A DNA stretch of 64,000 bases. It comes from Thiosulfativibrio zosterae. GTDB lineage: Bacteria > Pseudomonadota > Gammaproteobacteria > Thiomicrospirales > Thiomicrospiraceae. The translations under genes and the position numbers were made by a program. This document shows positions 38,401 through 41,284 of this stretch, in pieces. Below the pieces are notes generated by a model that saw nothing but the letters and a program-made list of their open reading frames with translations, did no database searches and was not told the DNA's origin. How positions within the stretch are numbered: position 1 is the stretch's first letter; each line of letters opens with the position of its first letter. Location of the stretch: contig NZ_AP021888.1 in the NCBI RefSeq assembly GCF_011398155.1, forward strand, positions 1,409,501 to 1,473,500. Direction: 5' to 3'.

Positions 38401-39474
38401 ATGTTACCCAACCCAAACTCTCGTCTTGAAAATAGTGCCAATCATTTCAGCGTTGCCCCGATGCTAGACTGGACAGACCGTCACTGCCGCTATTTTCACC
38501 GTTTGTTAACGCAACAGGCCTGGTTATATTCAGAAATGATTACCACCGGTGCAATTATTTATGGCCAGGATTTACCCAGATTTTTAGGACATGATCATGA
38601 CCAACCAGTGGTTTTACAATTGGGCGGCAGTACACCCAAAGACATGGCCACTTGTGCAAAACTTGGACAAGAATGGGGTTATGCGGAAATCAACTTGAAT
38701 GTGGGTTGCCCATCTGATCGCGTACAAAATAATATGATTGGCGCCTGCTTAATGGGGCACCCTGAGTTGGTTGCTGAAAATGTAGCGGCGATGAAATCAG
38801 CAGTCGATATCCCTGTAACGGTGAAAACGCGTATCGGAATTGATGAGCAGGAAGACTTTGAAACCTTGGTGCATTTTGTAGAAAGCTTGGTCGGTGCGGG
38901 TGTTGATGGTGTGATTATTCATGCCCGCAAGGCTTGGTTGCAAGGCTTGTCGCCTAAAGAAAATCGTGAAGTACCTCCCCTAAAATATGAATGGGTGCAT
39001 CAACTCAAACAAACTTTCCCAGATTTGGCCATTGCCATTAATGGTGGATTACAAACCCTAGATGCCGCGCAATTGCATTTACAAAATTATGCCTTTGAGG
39101 GCCAAAACTTACCAGGCCTGGACGGTGTGATGCTGGGTAGAGCGGTTTACGAAAATCCTTATTTGCTGAGCAATGTTGATACCCAATATTATCAAGCAAA
39201 AACAGCTATTCCCAGTCGTGAAGCGGTGCTGGAACAATTGTATCCTTATATTGAAAATCATCTGAGCCAGGGCGGAAAGCTCAATCAGGTCAGCCGTCAT
39301 ATTTTAGGCCTTTTTTACGGTATGCCTGGTGGCAGAATGTGGCGTCGCCATATCTCAGAAAATGCATTTGCCACTGGCGCGGGTATTGAAGTGATTCAAC
39401 AAGCCCATCAATTGGTTGCCACCGAAATTGAAAGAATGGCACAACAAATATCTGAAAGAGCAGGGCAATCATAA
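38401..39474 (+). CDS. dusA: tRNA-dihydrouridine(20/20a) synthase
   Basis: DusA reduces uridines 20 and 20a in the D-loop of tRNAs with FMN. The 357-residue protein has the FMN-binding start FSVAPMLDWTDRHCRYFHRL, the catalytic Cys in NLNVGCPSDRVQNNMIGACL, the K-x-R motif VTVKTRIGID and IIHARKAWLQGLSPKENR. These are DusA-type features. Its stop codon overlaps the xseA start by one base. Two near-copies of the palindrome lie inside it. Confidence 0.96.
   Translation: MLPNPNSRLENSANHFSVAPMLDWTDRHCRYFHRLLTQQAWLYSEMITTGAIIYGQDLPRFLGHDHDQPVVLQLGGSTPKDMATCAKLGQEWGYAEINLNVGCPSDRVQNNMIGACLMGHPELVAENVAAMKSAVDIPVTVKTRIGIDEQEDFETLVHFVESLVGAGVDGVIIHARKAWLQGLSPKENREVPPLKYEWVHQLKQTFPDLAIAINGGLQTLDAAQLHLQNYAFEGQNLPGLDGVMLGRAVYENPYLLSNVDTQYYQAKTAIPSREAVLEQLYPYIENHLSQGGKLNQVSRHILGLFYGMPGGRMWRRHISENAFATGAGIEVIQQAHQLVATEIERMAQQISERAGQS
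38513..38524. repeat. Palindrome near-copy (11 of 12) in dusA
   Basis: AACAGGCCTGGT differs at one base from the consensus and encodes Gln-Gln-Ala-Trp-Leu within the tract LLTQQAWLYSEM. Confidence 0.75.
39111..39122. repeat. Palindrome near-copy (11 of 12) in dusA
   Basis: ACCAGGCCTGGA has a perfect 10-base core and encodes Leu-Pro-Gly-Leu-Asp. Confidence 0.85.
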
Positions 39475-41057
39475 TGTTGTTAGTTGTTCCCTTTGCTGAA
39501 AAAGAACAAGCAAAGTCTCTAGGCGCCCGCTGGAATCCGGTCGAAAAAAAATGGTATGTGCCAGACGACCTTTTGCATGACCTAAGCCCTTTTGCAAAAT
39601 GGTTACCGCAAACTGCTCCATCACAATCGCTAAGTAATACAACCTTAAATCTTGAAATAGAGCCAAATGAGTTATCCGAAAAGGGCGTAACGCTCAGTCA
39701 ATTGATGGCACAAGTGCAGGTCAGTTTGCGCCAAGCTTTTCCAGGTGCGGTTTGGGTCAAGGCAGAAATTGCCAATATCAGCGAGCGTCGCGGTCACTTG
39801 TATTTTGAATTGTCCGAAACCAATGAGGCGGGGCAGGTATTAGCCACTTGCCGTGCCATGATTTGGCAGGGTCAGGCGCAACGCATTTTGCAAACCTTTC
39901 AACAAGCAACCGGCAGTGCATTACAAGCGGGTCAAAAAATATTGTTATTAGCCGAACTCACCTTTCACGAAAAATTTGGTTTTTCATTGGCGATACAAGA
40001 TATTGATCCCGCCTTCACTTTGGGAGAGTTAGAAGCCAATCTTAATCAAATTCGTCAGCAATTAATTGCCGAACAGCGTTATGACAAAAACAAACGCTTT
40101 AAATTGCCGAATGACTTTTTTCGGGTTGCTGTTATCGCTCCACCAGCGGCCGCAGGCTTAGGGGACTTTAGAGCAGATGCCGATCTGTTGCATCAACAAG
40201 GATTGTGCGACTTTAACTATTTTTATTCTGCTTTTCAGGGAGAGCAGGTTGAGTCAGAAATGCTCAGTGCCTTTGATGCTTTTTTAGCAATGCACCAAGC
40301 CAAACCGTTTGATGCCTTGGTCATTATTCGCGGTGGTGGCGCCAAGTTAGATTTAAACCCGCTTAATCTGTACAGCTTGGCGCGCATGATTGCCGACAGC
40401 CCTTTACCGGTATTAACCGGCATAGGTCACGAACGCGACTCGACTATTTTAGATGAAGTGGCTTGCCAAAGATTTGATACGCCCAGTAAAGTAATAGGCG
40501 CGATACGCCATGCTATATTTCATCAAGCACAGCAAGCCAAAAACCACTGGCAGCAAATTGAAAAATCCAGTTTAAATTACATCCAAAAACAGCAACAAAA
40601 ATTACAACTACTAGACCAAACCGTTCAACAACAAAGTGTCACGGTGTTGCACAAATGGCAAGAAAAATTAACCCCCATGCATTATCAAATTCAACGCAAA
40701 AGCCAAAGCATCACCAATGATGCCAATGCACAGTTAGAGCGTTTATTTCATAATTTAGTTAATCGAGTGGAACAAAGTGTTGCCCTTAAAAAACACAGCT
40801 TAGAACAAATGCATCAAGCCATATTGGACAATCATCAAAAACCCCTGATGCAAGCCAAAAACCAATTACAACAATGGATGGCATTTATCTTAAGTTCTGG
40901 GCCAAAATCGCAAATGCAACGCGGTTTTGCCATGGTGAGTTCCGCTGAAGGTAAAATTTTAAAAACCGCTGCTTTAGCCCAGCAAGAAACCCAATTAAAT
41001 TTAAAATTCATGGATGGCGAAGTATCCGTGAGCGTCAATCCAAAGGAGAAGGCATGA
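39474..41057 (+). CDS. xseA: Exonuclease VII large subunit with an N-terminal DUF5710-like domain
   Basis: Exonuclease VII degrades single-stranded DNA from both ends. The 527-residue protein has the usual parts from about residue 68: the OB-fold (TLSQLMAQVQVSLRQAFPGA, VWVKAEIANISERRGHLYFE), the catalytic domain (VAVIAPPAAAGLGDFRADAD, VIIRGGGAKLDLNPLN, GIGHERDSTILDEVA) and a long coiled coil, ending in the family motif QMQRGFAMV. In addition, residues 1-45 (VVPFAEKEQAKSLGARWNP followed by KKWYVPDDL) resemble DUF5710, known mostly from plasmid primases and antirestriction proteins. The ATG overlaps the dusA stop, which supports translation of the fused domain. Confidence 0.94.
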   Translation: MLLVVPFAEKEQAKSLGARWNPVEKKWYVPDDLLHDLSPFAKWLPQTAPSQSLSNTTLNLEIEPNELSEKGVTLSQLMAQVQVSLRQAFPGAVWVKAEIANISERRGHLYFELSETNEAGQVLATCRAMIWQGQAQRILQTFQQATGSALQAGQKILLLAELTFHEKFGFSLAIQDIDPAFTLGELEANLNQIRQQLIAEQRYDKNKRFKLPNDFFRVAVIAPPAAAGLGDFRADADLLHQQGLCDFNYFYSAFQGEQVESEMLSAFDAFLAMHQAKPFDALVIIRGGGAKLDLNPLNLYSLARMIADSPLPVLTGIGHERDSTILDEVACQRFDTPSKVIGAIRHAIFHQAQQAKNHWQQIEKSSLNYIQKQQQKLQLLDQTVQQQSVTVLHKWQEKLTPMHYQIQRKSQSITNDANAQLERLFHNLVNRVEQSVALKKHSLEQMHQAILDNHQKPLMQAKNQLQQWMAFILSSGPKSQMQRGFAMVSSAEGKILKTAALAQQETQLNLKFMDGEVSVSVNPKEKA

Positions 41058-41284
41058 GCCAGTCAGCACAAAGCTTTAAAACCAATTATCAAAAACTGCA
41101 AGAAATTGCCCAGAAATTGTCTTATTCAGATGAAATTGATATTGATGAATTAGTACCCATGGTGGACGAAGCCACTCGAGCCTATAACTTATGTAAATCT
41201 CGAATTGAAGCGGTTGAAAAAGCCTTGAATCAACGCCTTGAAACTGAACCCAAAAACAACGAACCCACAACGGATTTGGTTTAA
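41054..41284 (+). CDS. xseB: Exonuclease VII small subunit
   Basis: The 76-residue, mainly helical protein has the XseB pattern FKTNYQKLQEIAQKL followed by DELVPMVDEATRAYNLCKSR, and an acidic end. Several small subunits bind the coiled coil of each large subunit. Its start overlaps the xseA stop by four bases (ATGA), giving translational coupling that suits a fixed complex. Confidence 0.94.
   Translation: MSQSAQSFKTNYQKLQEIAQKLSYSDEIDIDELVPMVDEATRAYNLCKSRIEAVEKALNQRLETEPKNNEPTTDLV

Follow-up and report, generated by a model that had tools for sequence, protein, structure and literature searches.

The gene encoding the exonuclease VII large subunit (XseA) of Thiosulfativibrio zosterae belongs to a divergent exonuclease VII subfamily which elsewhere has most of its members on plasmids and phages, which is the sole exonuclease VII found in the bacterial family of this organism and which there carries an N-terminal DUF5710 domain under selection. 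The subfamily presumably moved from mobile elements into chromosomes, and DUF5710 may bind DNA, with a preference for a certain DNA structure. A core repair nuclease is present across one bacterial family as a mobile-type version. A natural exonuclease VII with a second, selected domain offers a direct route to how the substrates of this enzyme are chosen. Moreover, residues 1-45 of XseA give a handle on the role of DUF5710, a widespread plasmid and phage domain of unknown function.

In the window (the whole stretch of 64,000 nucleotides that was analysed) xseA occupies positions 39474..41057 of the forward strand and encodes a protein of 527 aa. It is placed between dusA, encoding a dihydrouridine synthase (38401..39474, forward strand; Pfam Dus, E 3.9e-82), and xseB, encoding the exonuclease VII small subunit (41054..41284, forward strand; PF02609, E 6.8e-7, 29.6 bits with a cut-off of 24), which overlaps the xseA stop codon. 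The ATG of xseA at 39474 shares letters with the dusA stop codon (TAATG), an overlap that a previous reading of this DNA by sequence only had already pointed out. That sequence-only reading had also proposed a DUF5710-like domain fused to the exonuclease VII large subunit, and the domain search of the N-terminus bears this out. Residues 2-45 (39477..39608, forward strand) match model positions 3-44 of 44 of PF18974, in the same single 527-aa open reading frame as XseA. The match reaches 64.8 bits against a gathering cut-off of 26.5 (E 5.8e-18 on the N-terminus alone, 3.2e-16 on the full protein) and is therefore far beyond chance; a chance origin was rejected. The N-terminal motifs which that reading had quoted are conserved, with V5, K10, G17, W27, F40 and W43 invariant among 19 aligned DUF5710 sequences, 14 of which came from XseA fusions. 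In an alignment of 29 DUF5710 sequences K10, A13, K14, G17, A18 and W27 are invariant, and the conserved core of the domain (K, G-A-[RK]-W and W-[YF]) is present in this XseA.

The domain is followed by a fast-evolving linker that is predicted to be disordered (residues 46-72; 39609..39689, forward strand), by an OB fold (tRNA_anti_2, residues 73-178; 39690..40007, forward strand; Pfam E 3.4e-18) and by the exonuclease VII catalytic domain with its coiled coil and C-terminal part (residues 204-519; 40083..41030, forward strand; PF02601, Exonuc_VII_L, E 1.6e-59). The match to TIGR00237 (xseA) and the OB fold both begin at residue 73, close to the point, about residue 68, at which canonical XseA had been placed. 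In the AlphaFold2 model of the full-length protein, residues 1-40 have a mean pLDDT of 94-98 per ten-residue block. The N-terminus is modelled as beta-alpha-beta-beta-alpha, then the linker (residues 49-68) falls below a pLDDT of 50, and the OB fold, nuclease and coiled coil follow. As modelled, DUF5710 is a separate small domain, tethered flexibly to the OB fold via the disordered linker.

Pfam and the AlphaFold2 secondary structure together give a complete layout of OB fold, catalytic domain and coiled coil. When aligned to E. coli XseA (8txr, of which the chain reads A at position 238), D231, R286, H319 and D322 are the equivalents of D155, R205, H238 and D241; their codons span 40164..40439 of the forward strand, and none of the four varies among the 18 sequences of alignment A2. 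We take R205, H238 and D241 of the E. coli protein to be catalytic residues. In the OB fold E. coli F63 aligns to W131, the aromatic residue being kept. Passages of PMC11077951 describe D155A as a catalytic mutant and F63A as a DNA-binding mutant of E. coli XseA. The introduction of that paper and the title of one of its references present exonuclease VII as able to take protein adducts off DNA ends and link it to the resolving of quinolone-trapped gyrase complexes in E. coli. Judged by its sequence, the T. zosterae gene probably encodes a complete and active large subunit of exonuclease VII, a single-strand exonuclease acting from both ends.

This XseA is a member of a divergent subfamily, a point which the sequence-only reading had missed; a clean gap in scores and a long branch part the subfamily from canonical XseA. 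TIGR00237 gives 255-262 bits here versus 417-478 bits for the XseA of other gammaproteobacteria. The subfamily stretches AAGLGDF, IRGGGAKxDL and GHERDxTILDEVA..FDTPSKV correspond to TSPTGAA..D, RGGGSxEDLW and GHETDxTIADFVADLRAPTPTAAAE in canonical proteins. Since the stretches around the catalytic residues differ in this way, the active-site pocket may be tuned differently. Profile A2, built from 18 DUF5710-XseA fusions, matched 311 of 340 genomes of the class, 15 of them at 418-761 bits, G150 at 237 and the others at 201 or less. Among 398 genomes of the phylum 374 matched, with G000, G463 and G693 at 473 bits or more and the others at 191 or less. Ten of the 15 high scorers in the class are fused to DUF5710. 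Three genomes of one genus (G084, G222 and G326) have a chromosomal subfamily XseA without the domain, as have G463 and G693. The nuclease does not require DUF5710, since subfamily members without it occur on chromosomes, plasmids and viral contigs. No second XseA was seen in 14 of the 15 high-scoring class genomes (the second match in G352 is a DUF5710 piece), and G232 has a canonical XseA alongside the DUF5710 XseA; most chromosomes with a subfamily XseA thus have no other.

The same division was obtained in trees of the OB and catalytic regions, which were made by a quick method with SH-aLRT support only and have no outside root. After duplicates and short or truncated frames had been left out, a tree of 78 rows separated 23 canonical from 55 subfamily rows by a branch with an SH-aLRT of 100, and placed the family rows in one group (SH-aLRT 93). 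A tree of 68 rows, without L118 (from G150) and nine near-copies, gave the same split (SH-aLRT 100) and the family group at 96. The 23 canonical rows include the class-best A2 scorers and are a non-random set, the score gap over the 340 and 398 genomes being the broader test. By both the tree and the score gap, the T. zosterae XseA does not group with canonical gammaproteobacterial XseA. The presence of DUF5710 needs seven changes in either tree, and the starred branches force at least two of these with 78 rows and at least three with 68 rows. Two of the 15 high-scoring class genomes have unusual arrangements. In G352 (L031) DUF5710 and XseA lie in different frames, with the change near a run of seven C, which may be a sequencing error, decay or slippage. 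G232 has three DUF5710 copies (L043, L051 and L053) with the same XseA-type N-terminus, one with an in-frame TAA before XseA, one leading into a truncated XseA and one on an unrelated tail.

A fusion limited to a single genome was rejected. A survey of XseA proteins of the kind suggested by the sequence-only reading found it family-wide and also in further families. A DUF5710 match is present in 34 of the 36 genomes of the same bacterial family (G000-G035), and a DUF5710-headed XseA frame in 33 of the 36 (29 profile-checked among L001-L030 after removal of L017, which is from another family, plus L241-L244). All 33 XseAs found in the family carry the domain. No XseA was found in family genomes G011, G020 and G035, whose assemblies are 95, 84 and 83% complete, and the DUF5710 match of G035 sits in an unrelated short frame. 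A relative, Hydrogenovibrio sp. JE_KL2, shows 59% identity. In the class sample 22 of 369 genomes have DUF5710, and several other families also have an XseA with the fusion (G055, G082, G137, G253, G286 and G340). One DUF5710 copy, that in XseA, and one XseA copy were found in the 2.65-Mb T. zosterae genome. The titles and abstract openings searched held no description of the DUF5710-XseA fusion or of the divergent subfamily.

The sequence-only reading had expected the N-terminal extension to be translated, and the codons of DUF5710 do show purifying selection. In ten pairs of related fusions DUF5710 had a dN of 0.009-0.152, which was below that of the OB fold plus nuclease in eight pairs, and an amino-acid identity of 80-98%; in the seven pairs with finite dS its dN/dS was at most 0.14. 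In all ten, dN was highest in the linker. Furthermore, dusA is directly upstream on the same strand and abuts or overlaps the xseA start in 26 of the 29 family fusion loci (L002, L007 and L008 have no adjoining dusA), and the frame is open from the end of dusA in 26 of 29. Were the true start codon near residue 65 and the upstream DUF5710 match an untranslated remnant, a fast linker, subfamily members without DUF5710, the in-frame stop in G232 and the frame change in G352 could all be understood. A start near residue 65 is, however, disfavoured because of the codon-level constraint and identity of DUF5710 in these ten pairs, and also by the open frame behind dusA; an untranslated extension was rejected as extremely improbable. 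The dN pattern, the abutment of dusA and the AlphaFold2 confidence together make it most likely that the extension is a translated, folded domain under purifying selection on a flexible tether.

The fusion might also be neutral baggage, if a mobile XseA that carried DUF5710 by chance had spread to chromosomes where the domain is now idle. The repeated gain and loss of DUF5710, with its seven changes in both trees, and the several chromosomes with a subfamily XseA lacking it would fit such a history. Nevertheless the constraint on the domain is strong and uniform across the family, where no XseA found is without it, which leaves this history very unlikely.

Members of the subfamily are also present on mobile elements. 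A tblastn search with the full XseA against 72,556 plasmid records gave some match in 154, canonical copies included, and 78 records covered 80% of the query. Among the 50 plasmid matches listed, nine align from residue 1-3 and thus include DUF5710; these are from Variovorax, Polaromonas and Vibrio. By profile score (406-649 bits), the XseAs of all 12 plasmid regions inspected and that of Moraxella phage Mcat6 (L140) are subfamily members; a further Variovorax copy (L086) reaches 546 bits. DUF5710 is weak in the Vibrio copy L133 (36.7 bits). In 10 of the 12 plasmid regions an annotated xseB adjoins xseA. In viral contigs a subfamily XseA was encoded at 23 loci, none of which had the DUF5710 part, and DUF5710 was encoded in proteins other than XseA at 45 loci; the XseA of a Klebsiella prophage (L144) is canonical. 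Most of the plasmid and viral XseA copies viewed lack DUF5710. Transfer presumably went from mobile elements to chromosomes, although the trees, having no outside root, do not prove this direction. A protein of Stenotrophomonas phage DLP_6 (L056:5716-7017) annotated as exodeoxyribonuclease VII large subunit has only a weak DUF5710 match and is probably misnamed. It was rejected as a fused XseA, having neither an Exonuc_VII_L domain nor a TIGR00237 match.

The plasmid and prophage members suggest that the subfamily could serve mobile elements, acting on transferred single strands or in counter-defence, and that the chromosomal copies were domesticated for a similar conflict role and not for repair. 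DUF5710 is common to ArdC- and TraC-type proteins, and G232 keeps a canonical XseA in addition to the DUF5710 one, which are both in line with this. On the other hand no convincing match to a PADLOC defence model was found (best E 0.0085), the gene lies in a dusA-xseA-xseB run beside ordinary genes, and it encodes the sole XseA found in the genome. Because it is the sole one, this XseA probably also does repair. A conflict role, which is compatible with either a DNA-binding or an adaptor function of DUF5710, seems to us rather unlikely.

The other proteins that contain DUF5710 can provide some indication of its role. When 20 DUF5710-region proteins, chosen among the DUF5710 frames of the loci, were scanned with Pfam, 12 had another domain. 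In eight of these it was a UvrD-type helicase (L176 and L067), SNF2 (L217), FtsK (L214) or Toprim, alone or next to ArdcN and MPTase (L062, L064, L034 and L038). ArdcN, MPTase, DUF5710 and Toprim occur together in L062, L064 and L034. The remaining partner domains were AAA_5, NUDIX, DUF6011 and DUF2213, and L047 had no Pfam family at all. These proteins, together with annotated TraC, zincin and DUF1738 matches, agree with the earlier statement that plasmid primases and antirestriction proteins contain the module. In the literature searched DUF5710 is mentioned in PMC11233732 only, which reports 14 Rep proteins combining Rep_3 with DUF5710 on Acinetobacter pittii plasmids. DNA handling is the common thread of the DUF5710 partner proteins, and for this reason a DNA-recognition role is favoured. 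In one helicase-like protein (L067:451-1977, from G598) a tandem DUF5710 pair separates the Walker A region from the remainder of the protein. An SNF2-type helicase from a viral contig (L217:1926-3611) carries DUF5710 N-terminally, and HARP domains have this layout in SMARCAL1. A kinship of DUF5710 with damage-recognition domains of the HARP or UvsW-XPB type is a conjecture: Pfam gave no HARP match in XseA up to E 1 and there was no usable PDB fold match of any kind, though in so small a domain this does not exclude the link.

By analogy with its partner proteins, DUF5710 is most likely a flexibly tethered accessory DNA-recognition module. The sequence-only reading had suggested that it may bind single-stranded DNA or guide the nuclease to a special substrate. 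In the explanation we prefer, the divergent XseA is the complete, probably active and sole exonuclease VII of the family, found also on plasmids and prophages, and DUF5710 is an extra module for recognising DNA; we consider that this explanation has about an even chance of being correct as a whole. A mobile-element type of exonuclease VII would have displaced the housekeeping enzyme in the family. The role of DUF5710 would be to keep the nuclease in place on its substrate (single-strand/double-strand junctions or protein-blocked ends, for instance); the OB fold would pass single-stranded DNA on to the active site, and the coiled coil would be bound by XseB. The fusion, its presence throughout the family, the selection, the catalytic residues, the neighbouring xseB and a subfamily with mobile members all count for it. 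Against it count, for DUF5710 as a strongly basic DNA binder, a mean net charge of about +0.4 in the first 46 residues over 38 fusions and, for DNA recognition, the lack of a fold match or solved homologue. A sequence search of the PDB found no solved DUF5710 homologue, Foldseek of the DUF5710 model against the PDB gave a best match of E 3.1, VIA-align gave none at Z of 2 or more, and in PHROGs the matches were weak and only to families of unknown function.

The near-neutral charge and small size would equally suit a protein-binding adaptor that docks exonuclease VII on SSB, primase, helicase or another DNA-processing protein and is not itself a DNA binder. DUF5710 is joined to many unrelated DNA-processing domains, as adaptors are, and phages have stand-alone DUF5710 proteins, three of which (L174, L177 and L181, on viral contigs) end in DLPF, which resembles the acidic tip of SSB. 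However, a common partner protein is not evident, and the small DUF5710 proteins are diverse and mostly without an LPF tail (3 of the 31 listed end in LPF). The adaptor is a serious rival to the DNA-recognition role, possible in our view though doubtful. Two small cellular DUF5710 proteins (L048 and L036) end in PPWE or LPWE.

The DNA-recognition role can also be given a wider form. DUF5710 may be a DNA-structure sensor that mobile elements have plugged into primases, replication initiators, SNF2 and UvrD helicases and exonuclease VII, and a mobile exonuclease VII carrying it may then have displaced the housekeeping enzyme of the family. This generalisation is somewhat unlikely, but if true the repair nuclease of the family would pick its substrates by means of a module taken over from plasmids and phages.

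In comparison with known systems, the T. zosterae XseA is similar to canonical E. coli XseA (8txr; TIGR00237) in its OB fold, catalytic domain, long coiled coil and C-terminal part, in the presence of the equivalents of the four catalytic residues and in the adjoining xseB, whereas the extra DUF5710 with its linker, the lower TIGR00237 score and the altered signature stretches distinguish it. It has the DUF5710 module in common with TraC-type primases and ArdC-type polyvalent proteins, although by Pfam their ArdcN, MPTase (zincin) and Toprim domains are absent from it. The plasmid and prophage XseAs of Variovorax, Polaromonas, Vibrio, Pseudomonas pCAR1, Acinetobacter plasmids and Moraxella phage Mcat6 belong to the same subfamily by both profile and tree. 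Unlike these, the copy described here is chromosomal and is the sole XseA found in its genome, and with those of the Variovorax, Polaromonas and Vibrio plasmids it also shares DUF5710.
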